Assembly: GCF_018704065.1 (NCBI RefSeq)
Contig: NZ_JAGUQP010000020.1
Span: 1 to 55,875 of the forward strand
Reading direction: 5' to 3'
Length of the DNA: 55,875 bases
DNA from: Desulfovulcanus ferrireducens
Lineage (GTDB): Bacteria; Desulfobacterota; Desulfovibrionia; Desulfovibrionales; Desulfonatronovibrionaceae
Shown here: piece after piece, positions 89 through 46,512 of the stretch
Layout: every line of letters starts with the position of its first letter
Numbering within the stretch: position 1 is the stretch's first letter
Notes under the pieces: model-generated
Database searches by the model: none
The model's input: only the letters and a program-made list of their open reading frames with translations
Told to the model about the DNA's origin: nothing
Program-made: the position numbers and the translations under genes

Positions 89-369
89 TAATTGCAGTTT
101 ACAAAATTATTTCAACAATAATTATCCCTAATTTATTTTTTTGTTTTGTATTTAGAAAAGTTATCGTTGAGTCCGTGAAGCATTATTTTTATTTCTATTT
201 AATCTAAAGTTAAATTTTATGGTTTCAATAGGTTAGAAGTTAGTTTGTTCAGGAAAGTTTAACTCGCAATACTCTTTTTCTTTTAGAAGAAATGAATTGA
301 TGAAGGTTAATACATATTATGGTTGTATTTTTTTTGAAAAATGTGTATACGTAGAATATGGAGACAGCT
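89..369. other. AT-rich intergenic region before the chemotaxis operon
   Basis: No coding frame is convincing here; the minus-strand frame overlapping it is AT-rich and antisense to the first chemotaxis gene. The region presumably holds the operon promoter, but I see no clear sigma-28 or sigma-54 box. Confidence 0.5.
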
Positions 370-2166
370 ATGAATGAAATAAACTCCACAAAAAGAGTAC
401 AAGATTTTATTTTTAGATGTAAAATTTTGCCTAAACTCGGCCAGGGTTTGGCCAGTTCCATTCAAGACAGGGAAAAAGATTTCCTCATGTTGGGGGAAAA
501 TCTTCAGCGTATAAACTCAGAAATTTTAGCTTTTAAAGAACAGACCGAGGTGTTGGTCGGAGTTGCTGGGGGAGAAAAAATTGAAGACATAGTTAAAGGC
601 CTGGAACAAGGGTTGGATAGGCTGAGAAAAGGTTATGTTCAGACGAGTTACGATCGTGTTATTTCAGGTATGGCCAAAGAGCTAGGGCAGGTTAAGGAAC
701 TTGGTTCTTATGTCTTAAATTTTAAAAAGATTGTGCGCAGGCTACAAACTTTGGGGGTTTTTACTAGAATTGAAAGTGCCAGACTTGGTCAAGTGGGAAT
801 TGGCTTTGCAACGTTAGCGGATGATGTTGAAGGACTAGCGCAAAAAATAGTAATCTATGGCCAGGAAATTTTACAAACAGCCCAGTCATTGGGGAAAAAA
901 GTTGATTTGGCTCAGGTACAAACTGTGGGGCTGAAAAACAGGCAAGATAAATTGTTACGGAATGTATTTGTAAACTTAAATGAAAATTTAGAGGTACTAA
1001 AGAATTTGCAGCAGAGTTGTGCGCAAATTGCCATGGAAGTGGAACAAGGAGCAAAAGAAATCGCAAATAAAATCAGTACGGTAGTCGCGTCTATGCAGTT
1101 TCACGACATTACCAGGCAACAACTGGAACATATACAGGAGGTTCTTTTTGAGGTCCACTCTCTGCTTCAAGACGTAGGTCAAGGGGATGAAGAGCATAAG
1201 ATGCTGGAGGTGGTGGCCTGGTTTAAAGAGGTAGGTGAATTACAGCTTAGACAATTAAGATATGCTCGGGATAAATTTTATCAGGCTGTAGTGACTCTAT
1301 TGGATAATTTAACCGGAATTGAAACTGAAATAAGCAAGTTACATAAGAGCTTGGCCCGTACTCATGGTTTTGAAGAAGAAGGCGCGGCTAGCCTTTTGGA
1401 AGGTATAAGTTTGGGCATCAAAAATGTGGCCAAAGACATGCGCATTGCGGTTCAGGAAAATGAGCAGATTTCCGGGATGATGAATAGTGTAATAGAAAGT
1501 GTGAGTCAGATGAACGAGTTTGTTGAATACATAGAAGAAGTGGGCTTGGAGATAGAACTCATCGCTTTAAATGCTAGTATCAAGGCTGCCCACACAGGAG
1601 ATAAAGGAAGGGCATTGGGTGTGCTGGCGGTGGCTACTCAAAAGCTGTCCATGGAGGCCAGAGAAAAGACAGATAATATTTCCAAGTTGTTGCAAGAAAT
1701 AGTTAAAAATTCTCAACTTTTAGCAAAAGATGTGGATGAGGCCTTTGACCATGGCCAAACTGATGAACTGATAGATTATTTATCTCATCACATAAGCGAG
1801 CTTATAGGGTTGAATAAACAAGTTCAGGAAAAGTTTTCCCAGAGTTCCCAGGCTAGTGAGGCTGTTTTAAATGAGATAAAAAGGGTTGTTAAAGAGATTG
1901 ATGTCCATGAAAAGGTGGTGGCAGAGCTTGAAGGGGTGGAACAAGAGTTACGTCTTCTAGTCCAGGAAGCTGGAGCCATTGTGCCGGCTGCTTATAGTGC
2001 GGAAAGTTCTGAAAAATTGAAAGGGCTTTTGTCCAAATATACCATGCAAAGTGAACGGTTGATTCATATGGATATGCAGGGAGAAGAAGAGCAATACACT
2101 GTCGATGAAGATGAGAATGTTGAGTTATTTGATGATGACTTTGATGAGAATGTGGAGTTGTTTTAA
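370..2166 (+). CDS. Soluble chemoreceptor-like protein with CheZ-like motif and acidic ELF tail
   Basis: 598 residues with no membrane segment, mostly helical, and first gene of the operon. ATG 370 is chosen over ATG 358 because GGAGA sits 5 bases upstream. Two segments resemble the conserved tip of MCP signalling hairpins: residues about 125-164 (TRIESARLGQVGIGFATLAD) and about 387-431 (IELIALNASIKAAHTGDKG). The second diverges from the usual [15 protein letters not shown], so CheA coupling is uncertain. Between them, MQFHDITRQ (about 242-250) has the D-x3-Q spacing of the CheZ phosphatase site (E. coli D143/Q147). The C-terminus is acidic and contains DENVELF twice, the second at the very end. 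Likely a cytoplasmic scaffold or receptor acting with the CheY, CheA and CheR encoded downstream. The phosphatase or CheY-binding role is inferred from motifs only. Confidence 0.75.
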   Translation: MNEINSTKRVQDFIFRCKILPKLGQGLASSIQDREKDFLMLGENLQRINSEILAFKEQTEVLVGVAGGEKIEDIVKGLEQGLDRLRKGYVQTSYDRVISGMAKELGQVKELGSYVLNFKKIVRRLQTLGVFTRIESARLGQVGIGFATLADDVEGLAQKIVIYGQEILQTAQSLGKKVDLAQVQTVGLKNRQDKLLRNVFVNLNENLEVLKNLQQSCAQIAMEVEQGAKEIANKISTVVASMQFHDITRQQLEHIQEVLFEVHSLLQDVGQGDEEHKMLEVVAWFKEVGELQLRQLRYARDKFYQAVVTLLDNLTGIETEISKLHKSLARTHGFEEEGAASLLEGISLGIKNVAKDMRIAVQENEQISGMMNSVIESVSQMNEFVEYIEEVGLEIELIALNASIKAAHTGDKGRALGVLAVATQKLSMEAREKTDNISKLLQEIVKNSQLLAKDVDEAFDHGQTDELIDYLSHHISELIGLNKQVQEKFSQSSQASEAVLNEIKRVVKEIDVHEKVVAELEGVEQELRLLVQEAGAIVPAAYSAESSEKLKGLLSKYTMQSERLIHMDMQGEEEQYTVDEDENVELFDDDFDENVELF

Positions 2167-2214
2167 CATAGAGAGGTGAGCGGGATAAAAATTCCAAAAA
2201 TTCGCGAGGTTATC

Positions 2215-2568
2215 ATGTGTAAATTTAAGATCATAGATGAGGGAGATAGGGTTTATCTTAAGTTTAAAGGCGATTTGACCATAGAGCATGGAGAAAAGAT
2301 TAAAGAAGCTTTAAATCAGGTTTTAACTCAGGGAAAAGATATTTTTGTGGATTTAGATGACATGATAAAGGTGGATCTGTGTTTTATCCAGGCGCTTTTA
2401 GCAGCACAAAAAAGCGCGTGGAACAGTCAACTGTCCTTTATGGTCAGCGAGAATGAGGTACTAAAAAAGTATGCTCAGAGTTTGGGGTGTATGTTGAAAA
2501 AGATGAAAGTTTTTTCTCCTGAGGTATTAAAGTTAGTAAAGAATAAAACCAACATTAAGGAGTTGTAG
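2215..2568 (+). CDS. STAS-domain protein of the chemotaxis operon
   Basis: 117 residues from ATG 2215, which has GAGG just upstream; GTG 2176 would add 13 unconserved residues and has its purine run too close. The fold matches STAS (anti-sigma-factor-antagonist-like) proteins: a beta strand (VYLKFKGDLTIEHGEKIKEAL), then IFVDLDDM and VDLCFIQALLAAQKSAW. In relatives the position after VDL is normally Ser or Thr, the phosphorylation site; here it is Cys, so classical Ser phosphorylation looks lost. Single STAS proteins often sit in deltaproteobacterial chemotaxis operons, where their role is not well defined. It directly abuts cheY, so the two are probably translated together. Confidence 0.75.
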   Translation: MCKFKIIDEGDRVYLKFKGDLTIEHGEKIKEALNQVLTQGKDIFVDLDDMIKVDLCFIQALLAAQKSAWNSQLSFMVSENEVLKKYAQSLGCMLKKMKVFSPEVLKLVKNKTNIKEL

Positions 2569-2934
2569 ATGGCCAAGAAAATTATGACTGTTGATGATTC
2601 TGCCAGTGTGCGCCAGATGGTTTGCTTTACTTTAAAAGGGGCAGGCTATGAAGTACTTGAGGCAAAGGATGGTCAGGATGCCTTGGCTAAATTAACAGGT
2701 CCGCTAGACTTGATTATCACGGATTTAAATATGCCTAATATGGATGGGATTGAACTTATCCGCCAAGTCAGGTCCAAGCCCGGATTTAAATTTATTCCGA
2801 TTATTATGCTCACCACTGAGTCTCAGACCGAGAAAAAAATGGAAGGTAAAAAGGCTGGCGCTACTGGCTGGATTGTGAAGCCATTTAAACCAGAGCAATT
2901 ATTGGCTGTGGTTAAGAAAGTGTTGAAGGGATAG
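2569..2934 (+). CDS. cheY: CheY-type response regulator
   Basis: 121 residues forming a single receiver domain. The acidic pair is D9-D10, the phosphoacceptor is D52 (ITDLNMP), the switch threonine is T82/T83 and the conserved lysine is K104 (WIVKPFKP). The length equals a stand-alone CheY and there is no output domain. ATG follows directly after the STAS stop codon (TAGATG), with AAGGAG upstream. It should be phosphorylated by the CheA encoded 84 bases downstream and bind the flagellar switch. A decayed cheY lies at 37412-37780. Confidence 0.93.
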   Translation: MAKKIMTVDDSASVRQMVCFTLKGAGYEVLEAKDGQDALAKLTGPLDLIITDLNMPNMDGIELIRQVRSKPGFKFIPIIMLTTESQTEKKMEGKKAGATGWIVKPFKPEQLLAVVKKVLKG

Positions 2935-3018: not shown

Positions 3019-5115
3019 ATGTCTTTTCAGGATCAGGGTCGACAGGCCTTTCGGGAAGAGGCCTTAGAGCTTTTGGAAGAATTGGAGTCTTCCCTTTTGG
3101 AACTCGAAGAAGACCCGGATAACGAGGAGTTAATCAACAGGGTCTTTCGGGCCATGCATACTATCAAGGGCTCTGGGGCCATGTTTGGCTTTGACGACAT
3201 CTCTAAATTTACTCACGAGTTGGAAACTGTTTTTGATCAGGTCAGGGAAGGTAAAATCAAGGTCGGCAAAGATCTTTTAGACCTGACTCTTAAGGCCAGA
3301 GATTTGATTTTGGCTATGCTTGAAGGCCGTGAAGCGGAATCTGAACTTCAGGCCGAAGAAATAATTGCTGGTCTGCGTATGATTGTACCAAGTCAAGTAA
3401 AACCTGACGGCGATGATAAAAAAGACTTGGAGAAGGTTAGGGCGGCAGAAGAGATTCGGTCTTATAGAATCATGTTTAAGCCACAGAAGGAGATTTTTTT
3501 AACCGGATCTGATCCTGCAGCCTTGATAGAAGAACTGTGTGTTTTGGGTCGGTGTAGGGTAGTTATGCATACTGGGGATATTCCTGGACTGGACGATTTT
3601 AATCCGGAATTATGTTATGTGTGGTGGGATGTGATTTTAACTACCGATCAGGGGTTGGACGCTATCAAGGATGTATTTATTTTTGTAGAGGATGATTGCG
3701 AGCTAAAAATTGAACAAATTGATGTCCAGGATGTCGAAGGGAGAGGATATAAAAAAATAGGTCAAATTTTGGTAGATCGGGGAGATATTAGCCCTGAAGT
3801 GGTACAGAAATTTTTAAAACTTCAGAAGCCTCTTGGTCAGCTTTTGGTGGAAGCTGGTTTATTATCACCTCAAAAGGTGGAGGCTGCTTTAGCGGAACAG
3901 GAGGAGGTTCGCCAGGCACAGATTCTGAAGAAAAAAAGCAAGTCAGCCATTGTTTCCAGCATTCGCGTGCCAGCTAAGAAGTTAGATTATCTGGTAAATT
4001 TGGTGGGGGAATTGGTTATTGTCCAGGCCAGGCTCAGCCAACTAGTTTGTTCCATGCAAGATCCGCAATTAACCACTTTGGCCGAGGAATTGGAGAGGTT
4101 AAGTGATGAACTGCGAGATAGCACATTAGAAATAAGAATGCTGCCTATAGGAACTATCTTTAGTAAGTTTAGGCGGTTGGTCCGCGATCTCTCTCGGGAT
4201 CTGGATAAAGAAATTGAATTGGTAACAAAAGGGGAGGAAACAGAGCTGGATAAGACGGTAATTGAACGTTTGAATGATCCCTTGGTCCATCTGCTCAGAA
4301 ACAGTATCGATCATGGTATAGAGACGCCTGATGTGCGCATGGCCAAAGGCAAACCTCCCCAAGGAACTGTGGTTTTAGCTGCAGAACACTCTGGCGGGGA
4401 GGTGATTATTCGTATCATTGATGATGGGGCTGGGATAGACAAGGAAAAGGTCAGAGCCAGGGCTATTCAACAAGGTATAATTTCTGCTGATGCAGTATTG
4501 AATGATCAGGAGATTTACGATTTGATTTTTGCTCCGGGATTCTCCACTGCGTCTCAGGTGACTAATGTCTCCGGTCGCGGGGTGGGTATGGACGTAGTCA
4601 AACGTAATATTGAGGCCTTGCGTGGGCGTATTCAGGTGGAGAGTGAATGGGGTAAAGGTACAACCATAACTTTGCGTCTCCCCCTGACTCTGGCCATAAT
4701 TGACGGTTTACAGGTCCAGGTAGGCGAAGATTTTTTTATTTTGCCCCTTTCTGTTGTAGAGGAGTGTGTAGAGCTTAAACGTCAGCATGCAGTAAAGCGA
4801 AAGAAAGATAAGATTATCAATTTAAGGGGAGAGATTGTTCCTTACATAGTTTTGCGGGATTGTTTTGATATACAAGGAAGGCCGCCAGAAATTGAACAGG
4901 TGGTCATCACTCGCGTCCAGGGGAGCCGCATAGGTCTTGTGGTAGACAATGTTATTGGTGAGCATCAGACCGTAATCAAAAGTCTAGGGAGAGTATATCG
5001 CGATGTACCTGGTATTTCCGGAGCCACAATCAAAGGTGACGGCAACATTGCCCTGATTTTAGATGTGTCCGATTTGATGTACTTAGAGACAGGTATAGAA
5101 AGGACAACGCACTAA
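3019..5115 (+). CDS. cheA: Chemotaxis histidine kinase CheA
   Basis: 698 residues; ATG preceded by AGAGGT. Domains in order: HPt with phospho-accepting H47 (AMHTIKGSG); a P2-like region about 149-235; a double motif about 247-300 (IGQILVDRGDIS and LGQLLVEAGLLS) resembling the N-terminal repeat of type II secretion ATPases; P3 dimerisation helices about 318-375; GHKL ATPase with N box (HLLRNSIDHGIE, about 424-435), G1 (IDDGAGID) and G2 (SGRGVGMDVV); and a C-terminal CheW-like domain about 560-695. All catalytic motifs are intact, so it should be an active kinase phosphorylating CheY. It sits mid-operon. Confidence 0.95.
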   Translation: MSFQDQGRQAFREEALELLEELESSLLELEEDPDNEELINRVFRAMHTIKGSGAMFGFDDISKFTHELETVFDQVREGKIKVGKDLLDLTLKARDLILAMLEGREAESELQAEEIIAGLRMIVPSQVKPDGDDKKDLEKVRAAEEIRSYRIMFKPQKEIFLTGSDPAALIEELCVLGRCRVVMHTGDIPGLDDFNPELCYVWWDVILTTDQGLDAIKDVFIFVEDDCELKIEQIDVQDVEGRGYKKIGQILVDRGDISPEVVQKFLKLQKPLGQLLVEAGLLSPQKVEAALAEQEEVRQAQILKKKSKSAIVSSIRVPAKKLDYLVNLVGELVIVQARLSQLVCSMQDPQLTTLAEELERLSDELRDSTLEIRMLPIGTIFSKFRRLVRDLSRDLDKEIELVTKGEETELDKTVIERLNDPLVHLLRNSIDHGIETPDVRMAKGKPPQGTVVLAAEHSGGEVIIRIIDDGAGIDKEKVRARAIQQGIISADAVLNDQEIYDLIFAPGFSTASQVTNVSGRGVGMDVVKRNIEALRGRIQVESEWGKGTTITLRLPLTLAIIDGLQVQVGEDFFILPLSVVEECVELKRQHAVKRKKDKIINLRGEIVPYIVLRDCFDIQGRPPEIEQVVITRVQGSRIGLVVDNVIGEHQTVIKSLGRVYRDVPGISGATIKGDGNIALILDVSDLMYLETGIERTTH

Positions 5116-5214
5116 AGGTTATTTTTTGACTTAGACTTTGGCTTTTTGGGCAACGATATTTTAAAAGAAATTTTACCTGTAATAGGGACTGTAGTCTCCA
5201 ATATCTTTAAAAGA

Positions 5215-6051
5215 ATGTTTACTTTCCCGCAGATGTCCGATGATGAGTTTGAGCGGCTCAGAAGGTTTATTTATGAACATTTGGGTATAAGTATATCTCC
5301 GGCCAAAAAGACCATGCTACAGGCTAGGTTGCAGAAAAGGCTGAGACATTTGAACCTCAATTCTTTTGAAGAATATTGTAATTACCTTTTCAGGTTAAAA
5401 GGCATTGAATCTGAATTCCCTGAATTGGTGGATGCAGTGACCACCAATACTACGGAGTTCTTTCGCGAACCCAACCATTTTGACTTTCTTGTCAACTCCA
5501 TTTTGCCCCTCTGGCTTAATACCTACGGTTATGAGCGCGCCATGCTTTTGTGGAGTGCTGGTTGCTCCTCAGGTGAGGAACCATATAGTTTGGCTATGGT
5601 CTTGCAGGATTTTGCTGAAAAAAATCCTGGATTTAATTTCCTTATTCTTGCCACAGATATAAATAATAAGGTGCTGCAAAAGGCTGTGAAGGCTATTTAT
5701 CCAGAAGAAAAGGCTTTGAAAATCCCATTGTCTTTAAAGAAAAAATATCTTTTAAGGAGTAGAGACAGAAGCAAAAAATTGGTCCGCATTGCTCCAGAGA
5801 TCAGGACCAAAGTTAGGTTCCGGCGGTTAAATTTTGTGCGAGAATTTAAGTTCCGCAAACAAATGGATATTATTTTCTGTCGTAATGTATTTATTTATTT
5901 TGATCGCATCACTCAAAAAAGAGTTATCTTGCGTTTTTGTTCTTATCTCATGCGTGGTGGTTATCTTTTTTTGGGGCACTCTGAAAGTTTATCTGGCATG
6001 CAATTGCCGTTGATGCAGGTTGCTCCTAGTGTATATCAGAAGATAGGCTAA
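5215..6051 (+). CDS. cheR: Chemotaxis protein methyltransferase CheR
   Basis: 278 residues from ATG 5215. An upstream TTG (5146) would add 23 residues without a visible ribosome site, and ATG 5233 is also possible. The N-terminal helical domain (FERLRRFIYEHLGI) is followed by the SAM-binding methyltransferase domain. Visible motifs are TTNTTEFFRE, the glycine-rich SAM loop LLWSAGCSSGEEPYS, ATDIN, DIIFCRNVFIYFD and FLGHSESL. It methylates glutamates on chemoreceptors for adaptation. Its probable substrate is the next gene, whose tail ends EFERF, fitting the aromatic-x-x-aromatic CheR tether consensus. No cheB or cheD is in the window. Confidence 0.93.
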   Translation: MFTFPQMSDDEFERLRRFIYEHLGISISPAKKTMLQARLQKRLRHLNLNSFEEYCNYLFRLKGIESEFPELVDAVTTNTTEFFREPNHFDFLVNSILPLWLNTYGYERAMLLWSAGCSSGEEPYSLAMVLQDFAEKNPGFNFLILATDINNKVLQKAVKAIYPEEKALKIPLSLKKKYLLRSRDRSKKLVRIAPEIRTKVRFRRLNFVREFKFRKQMDIIFCRNVFIYFDRITQKRVILRFCSYLMRGGYLFLGHSESLSGMQLPLMQVAPSVYQKIG

Positions 6052-6277: not shown

Positions 6278-8332
6278 ATGAAAAATGTCAAGTTGGGAGT
6301 AAAATTGATCGGTGGCTTTATTTTTACGGCCATCATTGCTCTAGGAGTGGGTTTGGTCGGGGTTTATGTAACTAAAAACCTCGAGAGACACATCGAAGAT
6401 GTTGGCAAGGTAAGTCTGCCCGGTGTGCGGTCCATGTTACAGATTAAAAGTGAAACCACAGCTATAATGGAGGCTGTGCGAACTTTGACTTCCCCTGATC
6501 TGACTAGCGAAGAACGCGATGTAGAATATGAAAATATAAGCAAGGCCAGAGAAAGATATCGGAAGGCCTGGGCAGTATATGATGGACTGCCAAAACACTC
6601 TGATGACGAAGCATTATGGACAAAACTTGCATCAGAGATCAAGGAATGGGTAAAAATTAATAACAAAATCATTGGGTTGTCCAAAAAACTGCAGGAAATG
6701 GATGTGTTAAATCCATACAAATTGAAAGAAGAGTTACAGCGTTTTCGAGGCGAGCATTATAGACTTTTGGTACAGTTGAATGAGTTTATTCATTTTGGTC
6801 ACGAATTAGAAGGAGGAGAGGACCCAACCAAATGTGATTTAGGACAGTGGATACTTGGCATAGACACCAAAAATGAGCACATTAAAAAGACTGTCCAGCT
6901 AATCGAACATGTTCACAATACGCTCCACCAGAGCGTGGCTCAAGTAAAATCATTGGTGACCCAGGGTAATATTGAAGGTGCGGAAGCTGTTTTTGTAAAT
7001 ACTATTTACCCGGCTGCTAAAAAGACTTTAGAGTATATTCGTGAATTAAGCGCAGAGGCTCGAAAGGCAATGGATATTTATGAACAGATGAATAACTTGA
7101 TGTCGATTGAGTCTGAGAGCCAAAGTAAAGAAGTTTTTAGTTTGATAGATAAGCTTGTTGACTTAAATATTCAAGACAGTGATCGGGCAGTCGAACTTTC
7201 TGAAGCTGACAGCGGAAAAGGTATGACCATAATCATTATAGGTGTGGCTATAGGCGTAATTTTTGCCTTGCTATTGGGTATAGTTTTAACCAAATCTATT
7301 ACTAATCCAATTTTTAAAGGAGTTAGGTTTGCTCAAGCCATGGCAGAAGGTGATTTTACCCAGAAATTGGACATCGATCAGAAAGACGAAATCGGTATTT
7401 TGGCCAAAGCATTAAATGAGATGGTGGATAAACTGCGGACAGTTGTGGCAGAAGTCCAGTCAGCCAGTGAGAACGTGGCCTCAGGCAGTGAGGAATTAAG
7501 TACTTCTTCTGAACAGCTCTCTCAGGGGGCCACAGAACAGGCTGCAGCCTTGGAAGAGGTGTCGACGAGCATGGAAGAAATGGCAGCAAATATCCGCCAG
7601 AATGCGGAAAACGCCCAGCAAACAGAGAAGATAGCCCTAAAAGCGGCTCAGGATACCCAATCCGGTGGTAAAGCTGTACAGGAAACAGTGACGGCCATGA
7701 AAGAGATTGCTGAAAAGATTTCAATTATTGAGGAAATTGCCCGGCAGACGAACTTGTTGGCTTTAAATGCTGCAATTGAAGCGGCCAGGGCAGGGGAGCA
7801 CGGCAAAGGTTTTGCGGTAGTAGCTGCAGAAGTACGCAAATTGGCGGAGCGAAGTGGGGCTGCAGCAGCAGAGATCAGTGAACTGTCTTCTAGCAGTGTA
7901 GATGTGGCTGAAAGGGCCGGGGAAATGCTACAAAAGATTGTTCCGGATATTCAAAGGACAGCGGAGTTGGTTCAGGAGATCACTGCAGCTAGCAATGAAC
8001 AAAATACCGGAGCTGAGCAGATCAACAAGGCTATCCAGCAGTTAGATCAGGTGGTGCAGCAAAATGCCTCTGCCGCAGAAGAAATGGCTTCTACTTCACA
8101 AGAAATGGCTTCCCAGGCACAGCAGTTGCAGGCTACCATGTCTTTCTTTCATATAGATAGGGCCTCGCATAGCCCAGTCAATAAAAAGCGACCGGTACAA
8201 CAGGCATTTTCTACTTTAAAACAGACAGGTACAATGCAGCCAGCCTCGTCTACTAAGTCAGCTCAGGCTCCTGAAGGGATAGATTTACAATTGGACGGTG
8301 ACGAAGATGATAAAGAGTTTGAGAGGTTCTAA
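6278..8332 (+). CDS. Methyl-accepting chemotaxis protein with periplasmic CZB-like domain
   Basis: 684 residues, with the strong ribosome site AAAGGAGGAAG. TM1 is about 8-30, a periplasmic helical sensor is about 31-315, TM2 is about 316-340, then HAMP to about 395 and an intact signalling hairpin ([20 protein letters not shown]). The sensor includes H172, H175, C186-D-L-G-Q-W191, H201 and H211/H213, the pattern of the chemoreceptor zinc-binding (CZB) domain. That domain is usually cytoplasmic and C-terminal, but here lies before TM2. The C-terminus EFERF matches the CheR-binding pentapeptide consensus. Gene position between cheR and cheW suggests it is the main receptor of this array. Zinc or redox-linked oxidant sensing is possible but unproven. 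Confidence 0.92.
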
Positions 8333-8411: not shown

Positions 8412-8939
8412 ATGATCGAAGACAAGGGCATAGCTACAAATCAGTATCTGACCTTTTTTTTGGATGAAGACCTTTTTGCTTTGGATATTGCTTCTGTGCG
8501 TGAAGTTCTAGATTATACGAATATTACTCGCATTCCCAAGACACCAGAATTCATGCGCGGAGTGATTAATTTACGAGGCAAAGCCGTCCCTGTCGTGGAT
8601 TTGCGTTTGAAATTTGGTATGGGCGAGACTGAGCGGACCGTGAATACTTGTATCATAATCGTAGAAGTCGAAATTGATGGAGAGAAAACCATCATGGGTG
8701 CCTTAGCAGACTCTGTGCAAGAGGTTTTTGAGCTTGATCCGGAAACTATTGAACCTCCACCAAAATTGGGAACTAAAATTCGCAGTGATTTTATCAAGGG
8801 TATGGGTAAATATAATGATAAATTTATAATAATTTTAGATATAAACAAAGTATTTTCAGTTGAAGAGCTGTCTCTGGTCCAGGATGTTCAAGGGGAAAAC
8901 AAAGAGCAGATTGTTCAATGTGAAGAAAGTGAAGTATAG
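8412..8939 (+). CDS. cheW: Chemotaxis coupling protein CheW
   Basis: 175 residues. The CheW fold runs across most of the protein: YLTFFLDEDLFALDIASVRE, the conserved MRGVINLRGKAVPVVDLR, then VQEVFELDPETIEPPP and IKGMGKYNDKFIIILDINKV. It links CheA to receptors in the signalling array. GAGG precedes the ATG. Last gene of the operon, followed within a few bases by a strong terminator. The roughly 20-residue C-terminal extension is acidic and shows no motif. Confidence 0.94.
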   Translation: MIEDKGIATNQYLTFFLDEDLFALDIASVREVLDYTNITRIPKTPEFMRGVINLRGKAVPVVDLRLKFGMGETERTVNTCIIIVEVEIDGEKTIMGALADSVQEVFELDPETIEPPPKLGTKIRSDFIKGMGKYNDKFIIILDINKVFSVEELSLVQDVQGENKEQIVQCEESEV

Positions 8940-8973: not shown

Positions 8974-9249
8974 GTATGTGGCTATTATCTTGATTTTAAA
9001 ATTTAGTTTTAAAATTTGGTGATACAAATTATTTTGTTTTAATATTTAGTTTCTAGAGCATAGCGCTTTCTTTTCCTGAATATAGGTAATATATTCATAG
9101 GAAAACTCTAATTCTGTCTTGACTAAGAAATTATCTGTCAAGTTTCAGTCAGAAGAAAAGTTGGAAACCAGGTTGTAATTTTATCATATCTGTAAATAGA
9201 TTGGTGTACAGGTAGAGTTTTTATCGGATAAGGTAAAGGGGATTGCTTG
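8974..9249. other. AT-rich intergenic region before the c-di-GMP/KaiC-like cassette
   Basis: No gene is visible. The tail (AAGGTAAAGGGG at about 9231) supplies the ribosome site of the next gene. A promoter for the cassette must lie here, but I cannot name its boxes with confidence. Confidence 0.5.
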
Positions 9250-11022
9250 ATGAATGTTATAGAGGCTCTTAATATTATAAGAGATTTTACGCCAATAAGT
9301 TCATTTAGCCCAACCGTTACTCATGAACTTATTTTAAAAGAACCATTTGAGAGTCTTTTCCAAAAGTTGAATATAGATTCCTTAGCATTTACTTTTAAGA
9401 CAAAAAATCAAATAGAAATGTTGTTTGTTTTGCCACGCAATGAAATAGATGGTAAATCAGATAATTTAGAAATGAAGAAAAACATAATGTTGGAACATAT
9501 AAAATTTATAGGATTTGATATTTATGAAGAAAATAAAAAGTTGACTGAAGAAATAATAAATCTAGAAATAAATAAAAACAATAAAAATAAGACAGGAATC
9601 ATCACCATACCATATGCGTTACCGAATATGGAAACTGAGTTTTTTCTTTCTGTTTTTGTAGACGATTCTGGGGTTGATGAAGTAAGTTTAGTTATTCTGT
9701 CAAATATTGGTTTACAATTAGGTTTTATGTTTTTGGTGAGATCCACTGGTAAAAAACTAGCCGCTGTAAGTGAGAGAGATACTCTTACTGGATTTTATAC
9801 TAGAGAAACATTATTTAAACTGATAGAGTTTGAAATCAAAAAGGCTAAAACTGCTGATCAGCCTATGAGTATTGCTCTTTTAAATATTGATAATATTCAA
9901 CTTATAAATGCCAAATATGGAGTAATAGTAGGGGATAACGTAATAAAAGCTGTCGGTAATATGATTAAGAGCTATTTAAGAGAAACTGATATTGTTGGTA
10001 GGTTTGCCGGCGATGAGTTTTTGATATTAAGTCCTTTTACAAGCGTTGAGGAAGCTTATGATTTTTTTGAACAATTTAGAAAAAGGGTGGAGAAAGCTAA
10101 TATATTAAATGATAAGAAAATTAGGATAACCGTAAGCATGGGGTTAATAGAGGTACCAAAGACAATAGATAGTTTGGGAGATGTTGAGTCAGCTTTACGT
10201 GTTGCCGTAAAAAAAGCAAAAGGGCGAGGAAAAAATAATGTCCAGGTACTAAAATCGAAAGATGAAATCAAAAAATTTCACAAAAAAATTGTTAGTGGGT
10301 TTGAGTTTATAAAATCGAAAATTTTAAACAAAGAAGTTTATCCTTTTTTTCAGCCAATACATAATCTTAAAAGTGGAAACATTTTGGGATATGAAGCTTT
10401 GGCGAGGGTTAAAGTAGATAATGAGTATAAATCCATATATGCTTACTTTGAAATTTTGGATGAACTTGGACTATGGGGTGAATTAGATAAAATAATAATA
10501 GACAAAGTTTTTCGCTTAAAGAAAGAGACATCTCTTTTTAATGGAAAACGGATTTTTATAAATCTTTCCGGCAGATTTTTACTCTTTGATGAAAATAGAA
10601 AATGGTTTTTAAATATAGAAGAAGAGTATCATATAAATCCAAAACAAGTTGTTTTAGAAATAACCGAAAGAGAATATATAAATGATATTTTTACGATAGC
10701 TACTTTTTTAAACCAATTAAAAGAAAAAGGTTATAATATAGCTATTGATGACTTTGGAAGTGGCTATTCATCTTATGAATACATAAAGCTTCTAAATCCA
10801 CACATAATAAAAATAGACGGTTCGTTAGTTAAAGATTGCGTAAATCAACGTATAGACTTAAAAATCATTTCTAACATAACATCGCTTTGTAAAGAACTGG
10901 GAATATCTGTTGTTGCCGAGTGGATAGAAAACAAGGCTATACTTGATAAATTAAAAGAGGTGGATATTGACTATGGCCAAGGATTTTATTTGTCACGTCC
11001 ACAGAATTTATTTGGAGATTAG
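9250..11022 (+). CDS. GGDEF-EAL c-di-GMP cyclase/phosphodiesterase
   Basis: 590 residues; ATG 9250 is used, with GGGG upstream (TTG 9247 directly precedes it). Residues 1-165 form an unrecognised N-terminal region, perhaps GAF-like. The GGDEF domain (about 170-335) has active-site AGDEF at 253-257 and an inhibitory I-site RETD at 244-247, five residues before it. The EAL domain (about 355-590) keeps EAL (382-384), NLSGRF, LEITERE, DDFGSGYSS, KIDGSLVK, VAEWIE and QGFYLSRP, so phosphodiesterase activity is expected. No membrane segment or signal peptide. The gene is strikingly AT-rich with many AUA/AGA codons, unlike the chemotaxis operon, which suggests acquisition. It is followed after two bases by a small gene. 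Confidence 0.93.
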   Translation: MNVIEALNIIRDFTPISSFSPTVTHELILKEPFESLFQKLNIDSLAFTFKTKNQIEMLFVLPRNEIDGKSDNLEMKKNIMLEHIKFIGFDIYEENKKLTEEIINLEINKNNKNKTGIITIPYALPNMETEFFLSVFVDDSGVDEVSLVILSNIGLQLGFMFLVRSTGKKLAAVSERDTLTGFYTRETLFKLIEFEIKKAKTADQPMSIALLNIDNIQLINAKYGVIVGDNVIKAVGNMIKSYLRETDIVGRFAGDEFLILSPFTSVEEAYDFFEQFRKRVEKANILNDKKIRITVSMGLIEVPKTIDSLGDVESALRVAVKKAKGRGKNNVQVLKSKDEIKKFHKKIVSGFEFIKSKILNKEVYPFFQPIHNLKSGNILGYEALARVKVDNEYKSIYAYFEILDELGLWGELDKIIIDKVFRLKKETSLFNGKRIFINLSGRFLLFDENRKWFLNIEEEYHINPKQVVLEITEREYINDIFTIATFLNQLKEKGYNIAIDDFGSGYSSYEYIKLLNPHIIKIDGSLVKDCVNQRIDLKIISNITSLCKELGISVVAEWIENKAILDKLKEVDIDYGQGFYLSRPQNLFGD

Positions 11023-11024
11023 AT

Positions 11025-11318
11025 ATGCTATTGGAGATAGAGAAATTAAACTTCATATTTGATGAGTTGGGAAAAATGGTTGGAACAATTTCAACATTTA
11101 CACTTTTTCAGAAAGCTCGTGAAGTAGAGGTTAAAAAGGAAAACAGCTTTGCTTCTTCTATGACAATAACCGAGAGAGGACTATTATTTTTAGGAGAACA
11201 GAGTTTTTCTTTGGAAGAGATAGAAGGGTTCAAAGAAACGTTATTCGAAAAGATAAAATTAGCCATCGGCGTTTCTTTTGCTGAAAAGATTGAAAGATGT
11301 CAGGAGAAGACAAAATGA
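11025..11318 (+). CDS. Small unknown protein of the c-di-GMP/KaiC-like cassette
   Basis: 97 residues that I do not recognise. No membrane segment, signal peptide or cysteine motif. It is a mixed alpha/beta-looking protein: an N-terminal helix (MLLEIEKLNFIFDELGKMVG), a central polar stretch with SMTITERGLLFLGEQ, and a long C-terminal amphipathic helix. It starts two bases after the GGDEF-EAL stop, and its TGA overlaps the ATG of the KaiC-like gene (ATGA), so the three genes are very likely one translationally coupled unit. It could be an adaptor between the cyclase and the ATPase, but that rests on position only. Confidence 0.7.
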   Translation: MLLEIEKLNFIFDELGKMVGTISTFTLFQKAREVEVKKENSFASSMTITERGLLFLGEQSFSLEEIEGFKETLFEKIKLAIGVSFAEKIERCQEKTK

Positions 11319-12694
11319 TTTTAGATATACCGTATCTTCAAGACAAGATATTAAACCAACAAGTAATTGAAAACTCTCTTGTAGTTATAAAAGGTGAACC
11401 GGGAACAGGGAAAACTACTTTTTGTTTTCAATGGATGTTTAATCTTGCTAGGATTAGGCAAAAATCACTTTACATAGGGACAGTTTCTGAGCCATCATTA
11501 AAGCTTATATTCGATATGTCCAATTTCACGTTTTTTGATAAAAAGTTATTGGATTGTATCAATGTTGTTTCATTGGAAAAAAATATTTTTTCAGATAGTA
11601 ATAAAACGAATTTACTTAATACCATAGAAGAATTAGTGGTTGGATATGATCCAGATATAATATTTATAGATAGTTTTAAGGCGTTGGAAGATTTATTAAG
11701 ACAGGATGAACTTGTGAGGAAGATAGTATATACTTTATCTATCAAATCTTATCTTGAAAATAAAACTGTTGTGTTGGTAGGAGAGTATGCAGATAATCAT
11801 TCTTCAGTATTTTCTATAGCAGATATAATTTTTAATATGGAAAAAACTAGTGTTGCAAATACAGAAAGACGATATTTTAGTATAGATAAATTTAGGGGCA
11901 GTGATTTTTACCAAGGTAAACATCCTTTCATCATAACAGAAGAAGGAATAAAAGTTTTTCCAAGGCTAAAATCTTCCCCCTATAATAAAGAAATATCAAT
12001 AAGAGATAGGTTAAAAGTTGGGATACCTACTCTGGATAAGTTGCTTGGAGGTGGCTTAATCAAAGGAACAATAGCACTTATAAAGGGAGAACCGGGAACA
12101 GGGAAAACTACTTTTTGTTTTAAATTTTTAACTGAAGGGGCAAAAAAGGGTAAAAGAGGGCTGCATATATCGTTTCAGGAGTCATCGCCCTTAATTATTG
12201 AGTTCATGGAAAATCTAGGAATGAATGTAAGAGAATATGTCGATAAGAATATTCTTGATATTAAATTTATAAGTCCTGTTGAAGTAGATCCGGATATTGT
12301 TTCCTTTGAAATAATAAAGTTGGTTAAGGAAGGAAACTATAGCAGGGTAACTATTGATTCTATATTCGATCTTGTTTCAAGGGTAATAGATCCGTTAAGG
12401 ATGAAGGATCTTGTATATTCTCTGGTTCATGAATTCAGAAGACTAGGCATAACAGCTATTTTTACCAAAGAGATTGTTCCGGGACATGTTGAAGATTACG
12501 GTATATCTTATATAGCAGACACCTATATTCAGATGAAATACTTAGCCTCGGATGCCGAGATAAAAAGAGTGATTGGTGTAATCAAATCAAAAGGGAGTGA
12601 TATAGATAACCACTTTTATGAGTTTAAGATAGAGAAAGGTGGTATAAATATACTTCATCCTATAAATTCGGATATTAATTGGTCTATATTTTAA
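11315..12694 (+). CDS. Double-domain KaiC-like ATPase
   Basis: 459 residues. ATG 11315 is preferred over ATG 11297 because AGGAG lies 8 bases before it and it overlaps the preceding stop. It has two RecA/KaiC-type domains. Domain 1 has Walker A GEPGTGKT at 28-35 and Walker B IIFIDS ending at 120. Domain 2 begins with the family signature GIPTLDKLLGGGLIKG and has Walker A at 258-265 and Walker B RVTIDS at about 344-349. Acidic residues follow both strands after Walker A (TVSEP; FQES), while classic KaiC has paired Glu (EE). Domain 1 lacks the LD-LLGGG signature. No KaiA or KaiB is nearby, so a clock role is unlikely; a signalling ATPase linked to c-di-GMP is more plausible. AT-rich like its partners. 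Confidence 0.88.
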   Translation: MILDIPYLQDKILNQQVIENSLVVIKGEPGTGKTTFCFQWMFNLARIRQKSLYIGTVSEPSLKLIFDMSNFTFFDKKLLDCINVVSLEKNIFSDSNKTNLLNTIEELVVGYDPDIIFIDSFKALEDLLRQDELVRKIVYTLSIKSYLENKTVVLVGEYADNHSSVFSIADIIFNMEKTSVANTERRYFSIDKFRGSDFYQGKHPFIITEEGIKVFPRLKSSPYNKEISIRDRLKVGIPTLDKLLGGGLIKGTIALIKGEPGTGKTTFCFKFLTEGAKKGKRGLHISFQESSPLIIEFMENLGMNVREYVDKNILDIKFISPVEVDPDIVSFEIIKLVKEGNYSRVTIDSIFDLVSRVIDPLRMKDLVYSLVHEFRRLGITAIFTKEIVPGHVEDYGISYIADTYIQMKYLASDAEIKRVIGVIKSKGSDIDNHFYEFKIEKGGINILHPINSDINWSIF

Positions 12695-37780: not shown

Positions 37781-37875
37781 TAAGTCTTAAGGACCTGATT
37801 ATTTCCCAGGATCATTGAGGATCATTGCAGGCATTTCCCAAAAGACAGCTGGCAAAGAGCAAGAGGAGAGTTGTT

Positions 37876-39372
37876 GTGCACAAGAAAAATTGTTGGCAAT
37901 GGCTTTTTTTCTGCTTTGCATCTGTATTATCATATCTTAGTGGATATGCAACCTTATTCATCCAAAATAAATATAATCTGCACTATTGCTGGTTTTTTAT
38001 ATTATTTATCTTGTTGATATTTTGTATTGCTTCACTATTAAAAAGGAAGTATGAAGAAGATAATAATGAAAAAGAGGAAAAAGAAAAGAAAGCGTTTCAG
38101 CTAATACAAAAAAATCTAAAAAATTTAAATATTGTTATAGACAAAGCGCTCAAATCGTTAAACTGTAATGATTTTAATGACAATCAACAGATAGTATTGC
38201 AATGCTGCTGCAATGGTAGTGAAAAAAGTATAGAGTATAACTATATTTTGTCTAATTTATATGAGATTTCATCAATTTTAGAAATTTTTATTGATAGGGT
38301 TAATCATATTGTAGTATTAAAACATCAGCTTGATGCCAACCATGCTCAGGAACTCACATCGTTGACCAACCAATATGCCACTATGGAACAAATCATAAAA
38401 CAAATAGTTAACGAACTAGCTCTCATTAACAAGATTATTGTCATGCAACAAATTTCTATTACAGATAACACTGACGAAGCTGCCAAAGAAATTATCTCTC
38501 AATTAAACTCCATTGACAATGCAGTCCAGACTATTCTGACCATCGCTCGTGATGGCATTGAACAAATAAATCAAATCGTTGCCCAGGTATCTGACAAAGG
38601 AGCAACAACTTGGAATGATTTGATAAGTTCTCTTACCAGTCATGTTTATGACCAAATGCAGACTATTACCGACAATATAGCCAATGTTCAATCTGTATTC
38701 TCCGAAGTCAAGAATTTAGAAAAATTAATTGATGAAGTTAAACATATTGCTGACCAGACAAAACTGCTTTCCTTAAACGCCGCAATAGAGGCGGCTCGCG
38801 CTGGTGAGGCAGGCAGAGGTTTTGCAGTGGTGGCTGATGAAGTGCACAAGCTCTCCAGTCAGTCTCATGCAACAGCAGAGAAAATGAACAAAATGATTAT
38901 GGGCCTTATAGAAAGCATAGAAAAACGTTTAAAAAATATTATGGCTGAAGCAACAAAACAGCAGTGGGAAAAAGCATTTGAGACCATCAAAAATCAGCTT
39001 AACCAGCTTTTTGAAGTCAACGAAAAAACCAACAGCATCTGCTCTCAGACAATGGGAAAGATGCAAGAACAAACTTCCCTGGCTGCGGATATGATCATGG
39101 AAGCCTTAAGTAGCATCCAGTTCCAGGACATCATCAGGCAAAAAACAGAAAATATCCAGCAGCTGTTAAATGAGGTAAACGATTATTTTAACAACCTGAC
39201 AGAAGCCATTGGCACTCAGGAACCCTCAGAAATTGCTGCCCTGCCCATGCCCTCGGCAGATCAACTCAAGAAAAAATACAAGATGGCTGCTGAACGTAAG
39301 ACCCACGCTTATGCCACAGGTGAAAGCTATTCACTTGATGAAGACGACGGTCCATCAATAGAACTATTTTAA
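37876..39372 (+). CDS. Membrane chemoreceptor with no periplasmic sensor, CheZ-like motif and ELF tail
   Basis: 498 residues from GTG 37876, with GAGGAGA upstream; earlier in-frame starts lack a ribosome site. Two membrane segments (about 8-28 and 37-55) are joined by a very short loop, so it has no periplasmic sensor. The signalling hairpin is canonical ([33 protein letters not shown]). After it comes [15 protein letters not shown], again with the D-x3-Q spacing of CheZ. The C-terminus is acidic and ends [11 protein letters not shown], like the gene at 370-2166. Its upstream cheY and parA partners are pseudogenes, so this receptor may be an orphan feeding the main array. Confidence 0.88.
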
Positions 39373-46032: not shown

Positions 46033-46512
46033 TCAGGCAAAACAAACTTCCACAGTGAGATCTCCAAACTGGGTAGTAAAAGGGATGGCCAGGACAGCCG
46101 AACTAGACACGTGGCTAATAGAGTGGTTTTTTCCGGTAACGACTGAAGGGATGGCACCCTCAAATGGCATGCCAATATCGGCCAGTCCCTTTCGGGCCTG
46201 ACCGCAAATCATATTTGTTAGCTCACCTACCGCATCAATAATATCCTGTGAAACTTCTGAGTACTGCTCGCCCAGCAGATTTCCGATTATCCCCAGGGCG
46301 CTTTGTTCTGTAAAGGTAACCGACATTGTCCCTTTGTTTTTGCCATTAGGGCTGGAAAAGCCAATCACCCCCGAGACATCACCTCTAGCAGTGTGGTCTT
46401 TTTTTACATAAGGCTTTCCCGGTTTAACTTCGACCATTGCCATTGTCCCTAATACATTAACTACGGCATCAACGAATTGCTTGATGATCTGCTTGACCTT
46501 ATCGTCCATCAT
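46033..46512 (-). CDS. cheX: CheY-P phosphatase CheX
   Basis: 159 residues. The CheX/CheC family signature DAVGELTNMICGQARKGL contains the E-x2-N phosphatase residues. A single such site and this length are typical of CheX. AAGGA lies before the ATG (46512; ATG 46509 is an alternative). It dephosphorylates CheY-P. Separate from the main chemotaxis operon and apparently monocistronic. Confidence 0.93.
   Translation of the reverse strand: MMDDKVKQIIKQFVDAVVNVLGTMAMVEVKPGKPYVKKDHTARGDVSGVIGFSSPNGKNKGTMSVTFTEQSALGIIGNLLGEQYSEVSQDIIDAVGELTNMICGQARKGLADIGMPFEGAIPSVVTGKNHSISHVSSSAVLAIPFTTQFGDLTVEVCFA

Follow-up and report, generated by a model that had tools for sequence, protein, structure and literature searches.

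Sequence comparisons place a CheZ-type active-site helix within a soluble chemoreceptor-like protein of Desulfovulcanus ferrireducens

The stretch of DNA analyzed here (the window) comprises 55,875 nucleotides of the Desulfovulcanus ferrireducens contig NZ_JAGUQP010000020.1. Close to its start lies a run of chemotaxis genes that opens with a receptor-like protein of 602 amino acids. A preliminary description of this DNA had placed the start of the gene at 370. The open reading frame actually runs from 358 to 2166 on the forward strand, and a start at 370 omits four amino acids. The proposal that the gene heads the che operon held, as it is the first of the run and is followed by STAS, CheY, CheA, CheR, MCP and CheW genes. 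The last of these starts at 8412, after the membrane MCP. The features that the text refers to are the following.

358 to 2166, forward strand: receptor-like protein, soluble, with two fused MCP-type hairpins
757 to 828, forward strand: first (N-half) diverged MCP hairpin tip, residues 134-157, VFTRIESARLGQVGIGFATLADDV, conserved
1090 to 1134, forward strand: CheZ-type active-site helix SMQFHDITRQQLEHI, with D250 (1105-1107) and Q254 (1117-1119)
1561 to 1647, forward strand: second (C-half) diverged MCP hairpin tip, residues 402-430
1894 to 1929, forward strand: second copy of the D-x3-Q helix, degenerate and without the Q (EIDVHEKVVAEL)
2035 to 2067, forward strand: Y[TK]M..[EQ]R..H helix before the tail, conserved in 34 sequences; Y, M and R also occur in membrane paralogues
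2110 to 2163, forward strand: very C-terminal end of the protein, with the tail motif twice (DENVELF-DDDF-DENVELF)
2176 to 2568, forward strand: STAS-domain protein (PF13466, 37.3 bits), retained between receptor and CheY at many loci
2569 to 2934, forward strand: CheY, the proposed substrate (PF00072), with N, E and W aligned to E. coli N59, E89 and Y106
3019 to 5115, forward strand: CheA kinase with Hpt, H-kinase_dim, HATPase and CheW domains
5146 to 6051, forward strand: CheR methyltransferase (PF01739, 199.9 bits)
6278 to 8332, forward strand: membrane MCP with the CheR-tether-like C-terminal pentapeptide EFERF (class 34H pentapeptide EFEKF in PMC2577667)
37825 to 39372, forward strand: membrane-anchored paralogue whose MCP tip is intact, with the helix FQDIIRQ and the tail SIELF; a lone gene far from the che operon

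Further signalling genes were noted in the window. Downstream of CheW, 9247-12694 encodes a GGDEF-EAL-like protein and a KaiC-like double ATPase, as read from the translation. The CheA of the operon (3019-5115) contains an MshE-type c-di-GMP-binding motif at residues 271-296, scoring 39 bits against an NCBIfam cut-off of 38 bits (region 247-307), and among 65 CheAs from related loci at least 7 have similar [VL]GEILVERGD...[RP][IL]GE[VL]L inserts. This CheA may sense c-di-GMP, as a candidate only. A CheX-like protein (ELTNMICG) was identified by eye from the sequence at 46033-46512 on the reverse strand.

The 602-residue protein was compared with the Pfam model PF00015 (MCPsignal) and scored 63.5 bits, above the gathering score of 34.6, with its best stretch at residues 366-515. 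All 54 aligned family members matched this model at E <= 1, the best at 6e-20. No stretch resembling a membrane span was found in the 602 residues, where the highest 19-residue mean hydrophobicity was 0.96. The same measure gave 2.7 and 3.2 for the two membrane receptors encoded in the window. These results support the earlier assignment as a soluble receptor-like protein. Like the soluble chemoreceptors of T. maritima (2ch7, 3g67) and R. sphaeroides (TlpT), it has an MCP signalling hairpin without membrane spans. In contrast to these proteins, it is made of two hairpins in one chain and has diverged tips, a D-x3-Q helix and a [VI]ELF tail.

The two halves of the protein were compared with each other at the profile level. 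Here, hhalign gave a probability of 98% over 234 columns, and the two tips paired with each other. In the same alignment, FHDITRQ of half 1 pairs with IDVHEKV of half 2, in which the Q is lost. Tip and motif are about 105 residues apart in both halves. Based on the alignment of the halves and the equal spacing, we read the protein as a tandem duplication of an MCP hairpin plus D-x3-Q helix, the second helix being degenerate. The tips have diverged from the canonical MCP tip and read STRIESARLG..G.GF.TLA and LIALNA.IKAAHTG.EG.ALGVLA. An AlphaFold model consists of long helices throughout (mean pLDDT 86, pTM 0.62), with a poorly defined tail. The solved structures closest by sequence are the chemoreceptor cytoplasmic domains 2ch7 and 3g67, which are also among the fold matches. 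The model further matches a designed helical-bundle protein over 192 residues at 2.6 A. This match extends across model residues 83-468 and suggests that both hairpins may pack together within one chain. A CheZ structure is absent among the fold matches listed, which are mostly long helical bundles of many kinds and are uninformative either way.

The motif MQFHDITRQ with its D-x3-Q spacing, pointed out in the preliminary description, is present at residues 246-254 (nucleotides 1093-1119). Conservation of D and Q in orthologues had been set beforehand as a test. A whole-protein search of 394 genomes of the phylum gave matches in 48. The window protein was aligned with 33 orthologues found by the whole-protein query, mostly 23-36% identical. 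In this alignment, all 34 of 34 sequences have the Q, H, D and Q that make up Q-x-H-D-x3-Q. A His four residues past the Q is likewise invariant, as are the final Phe and, in the YTM helix, the Y and the M. D250 and Q254 passed the test, and their invariance rules out a chance motif. In a subset of 18 sequences, 6 of the 27 columns that are invariant among 602 fall inside the 12-residue motif stretch (P = 3.5e-6). A larger set of 114 sequences was in part gathered by means of a pattern that includes the motif, so that the 34 alone are the unbiased test; neither D nor Q was lost in any of the 114, H was replaced by N once and R by S once. Four orthologues (L025, L033, L034, L158) have longer open reading frames of 813-996 amino acids, the receptor part being preceded by up to about 350 additional residues.

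CheZ is the phosphatase of phosphorylated CheY (CheY-P) and ends the chemotaxis signal; it is treated as a separate soluble enzyme. In E. coli CheZ, as reportedly described by Zhao and colleagues in 2002 (cited in PMC5231405), Q147 positions the water and D143 contacts CheY. For comparison, the family profile was cut into sliding windows of 45 columns, and these were aligned by hhalign with 15 CheZs. The motif window scored 28.6, with 43 ungapped columns placing FHDITRQ over FQDLTGQ. Windows away from the motif reached at most 18.4 (median 12), and the degenerate copy of half 2 landed in the same CheZ region and register with a score of 17.9. As controls, the reversed profile gave 19.3 and shuffles of seven-column blocks gave up to 28.0, the latter being a weak control as the blocks can keep most of the motif. 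The whole N-half aligned with CheZ at a probability of only 23-33%, because the tip has to be skipped.

The second decisive comparison, besides the sliding windows, used a profile (A4) made of four membrane-receptor modules, from which both CheZ and the window protein were left out. Searching this genome with A4 at E <= 1e-8 recovered the two seeds that come from it, the true CheZ (8.3e-10) and the window protein (3.4e-12); no other receptor and nothing further was found at this threshold. Over 5,135 open reading frames, 22 of the 24 matches listed at E <= 10 were CheZ frames, some of the 24 being overlapping copies of one gene. The best CheZ had 2.4e-10, with FQDxTxQ aligned, and ten were at 4e-5 or better. 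None of 46 ordinary MCPs was matched, even at E <= 10. Judged by sequence, the D-x3-Q helix of half 1 is homologous to the CheZ active-site helix, and the proposed match to the CheZ active site stands, in register and ungapped.

The HMM search with PF04344 that had been suggested as a check went the other way. The window protein gave no match at E <= 1, nor did residues 229-303 alone. Members of both subfamilies reached E-values of 1e-4 to 1e-3 (the best 1.4e-4 to 1e-3, at about 19-22 bits), and no family member reached the gathering score of 30.7 bits. Such matches below the cut-off are insufficient alone, since coiled-coil families give a similar background. Among the CheZs, four (L091, L093, L096, L106) have a hairpin interrupted by an insert of 100-300 amino acids, partly with repeated YQFPLDxVFQTxYELCTN-like segments.

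The CheZ-type helix occurs in two kinds of receptor-like protein, namely membrane receptors with intact tips and the soluble tandem ones. Membrane paralogues have a Q where the soluble family has the H before D. Two related genomes (L204, L205) have the membrane module in separate frames of 93-96 and 144 amino acids, probably as the result of a frameshift in the gene.

The duplicated DENVELF was found as described earlier, at nucleotides 2110-2130 and 2143-2163, with DDDF between the copies. These have 19 of 21 nucleotides in common and both differences are synonymous; for this reason the doubling is probably a recent micro-duplication of one conserved tail. All 34 aligned proteins end in [VI][ED][LF]F, and most orthologues have the single-copy form GDN[VI][ED]LF. 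The exact doubling is peculiar to the window protein, while in several other lineages an additional copy exists upstream in degenerate form. In this genome, all three receptors with the D-x3-Q helix bear a [VI]ELF tail (NVELF in the 602-residue protein, SIELF at 37825-39372 and QIELF in L002), compared with 0 of 10 other MCPs (P = 0.0035). A DNA pattern for GDN[VI]ELF followed by a stop gave 26 matches in 296 genomes, 25 of them within this receptor family, and the reversed pattern gave none in the same genomes. Distant membrane versions vary the tail as [IV]-x-[LFY]-F (NVVLF, DITFF, DVTYF, NVVFF). By these sequence counts, the tail belongs with the D-x3-Q helix and not with receptors in general.

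The preliminary description had likened the tail to the CheY-binding ends of CheZ and FliM. The CheZ-type CheY-binding peptide DxLLxxLGF was looked for and is absent from the window protein, whose tail reads NVELF; the true CheZ of this genome ends in VDELLAQLGL. What remains of that likeness is a conserved tail linked to the helix. It is neither the CheZ peptide DxLLxxLGF nor a FliM peptide, and its doubling is lineage-specific. Since the Pfam cut-off and the CheZ-type tail were both tested and the protein has neither, we do not file it as a CheZ, and by its sequence class it as a member of the MCP superfamily carrying a CheZ-type module. Common to it and CheZ are the D-x3-Q active-site helix, in register for about 43-90 residues, a helical hairpin and a flexible C-terminal tail with a hydrophobic last residue. 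It differs in that the helix lies within a hairpin of chemoreceptor type that has an MCP tip, duplicated in one chain, and in having a near-invariant H before D (Q in CheZ), its own type of tail and a Pfam score under the cut-off.

The expected neighborhood of cheY and cheA was recovered at most loci of the family, where CheY lies a short way downstream of the receptor gene, often after STAS, and is followed by CheA. The membrane versions L002 and L202 also adjoin a CheY, L202 near a STAS-like gene. At the aligned positions of E. coli N59, E89 and Y106, receptor-adjacent CheYs have N in 60, E in 63 and W in 63 of 63 sequences. The other CheYs of the same loci have N in 5, E in 6 and W in 4 of 42. 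This signature fits a CheZ-sensitive CheY; it may also be plain orthology.

The family is present in Desulfovibrionales, Geobacterales and other groups, with carriers such as Nitratidesulfovibrio, Solidesulfovibrio, Geobacter relatives, Syntrophorhabdus, Candidatus Kuenenia and Nitrospirae bins. A plasmid search with the module gave no matches. Among the genomes covered, four carriers have a CheZ as well (G000, G031, G068, G098), and five have none above the cut-off (G039, G041, G076, G102, G103). A simple replacement of CheZ was rejected, as this genome and at least three others hold both a family member and a true CheZ. The present genome may hold three candidate phosphatases, namely CheZ, the CheX-like protein and the receptor-embedded module.

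Based on these comparisons, we lean towards reading the protein as a cytoplasmic chemoreceptor-like protein with a CheZ-type CheY-P phosphatase module and a tail that tethers CheY. The two hairpins would pack as an intramolecular four-helix bundle mimicking a receptor or CheZ dimer, and this pseudo-dimer would have only one live active site. Docking into the CheA/CheW receptor array would be through the diverged tips, and the flexible acidic [VI][ED]LF tail would tether CheY, the product of the second gene downstream. CheY-P would be dephosphorylated with Q254 placing the water and D250 contacting CheY, in the manner of Q147 and D143 of E. coli CheZ. Termination of the signal would thereby be located in a receptor-like protein at the array. 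Against this reading we count the PF04344 misses, the H in place of the CheZ Gln, the non-CheZ tail, the true CheZ in the same genome, the possible orthology behind the CheY signature and the AlphaFold pTM of only 0.62.

In a rival reading the protein is a non-catalytic scaffold, left over from a soluble receptor, that would shape the CheA/CheW array while its helix docks CheY or CheA and its tail binds an array partner. In favor of this, the second half lacks the Q, the H is near-invariant too although D and Q would suffice for catalysis, and the genome has its own CheZ and CheX-like gene. We nevertheless consider a scaffold unlikely. D and Q are never lost over the 114 sequences, a partly motif-selected set, which goes beyond the usual demand on a docking surface, and the match is specifically to the active-site helix of CheZ.

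It is more improbable still that the tail is a CheR or CheB tether, comparable to the NWETF-like pentapeptides, and that the protein is an adaptation helper and not a CheY binder. The tail does sit at the extreme C-terminus behind a flexible linker, its N-x-E-x-F resembles NWETF, and a CheR gene is part of the same operon. However, tether classes follow xWxxF and x[FY]xx[FY] (PMC2577667), and NVELF with its V at position 2 fits neither. The membrane MCP of the operon already bears EFERF, close to the tether consensus EFEKF (PMC2577667). The association of the tail with the D-x3-Q helix, and not with receptors generally, also argues against a tether.

That H249-D250-x3-Q254 is a HisKA_3-like phosphorylation site and the protein a phosphotransfer sink is very hard to credit and such an origin was rejected: HisKA_3 kinases such as NarX and DesK have exactly this H-D-x3-Q string, but the motif window gave 0.3% in hhalign, out of register, versus 61% with CheZ, PF07730 gave no match at E <= 1, and the membrane paralogues have Q for H and one orthologue N. 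In NarX and DesK, a glutamine on the helix of the acidic residue serves dephosphorylation of the receiver domain (PMC5231405). The proposed phosphatase likewise has a glutamine and an acidic residue on the same helix; it differs from these kinases in lacking profile similarity and a kinase domain. CheA3 of R. sphaeroides is described as a His domain and a phosphatase domain that acts on CheY6 (PMC6829392). The two cases are alike in that a CheY phosphatase, putative here, is part of another core protein of the chemotaxis system, CheA there and, with a CheZ-type module, a receptor-like protein here.

In the literature searched, which left out most subscription journals, we found no description of the family, of NVELF tails, of CheZ-like domains or of a receptor-embedded CheZ. 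Geobacter genomes were reported in 2008 to be without cheZ, which was taken as a CheZ-independent mechanism (PMC2577667). As the family is found in Geobacter relatives, it would, if active, be a candidate CheY-dephosphorylating protein in Geobacter-type pathways without cheZ. Activity would further suggest a common origin of CheZ and receptors, or an exchange of parts between them. A receptor pseudo-dimer in one chain with one active site would also be convenient for structural work. On strong sequence evidence, the receptor itself may be able to erase the signal. A more tentative idea, which we regard as possible but rather doubtful, is an output through the phosphatase branch, in which the stimulus or the state of the array alters the pairing of the fused hairpins and so switches CheY-P dephosphorylation. 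If true, receptor-controlled signal erasure would stand beside receptor-controlled kinase activity.
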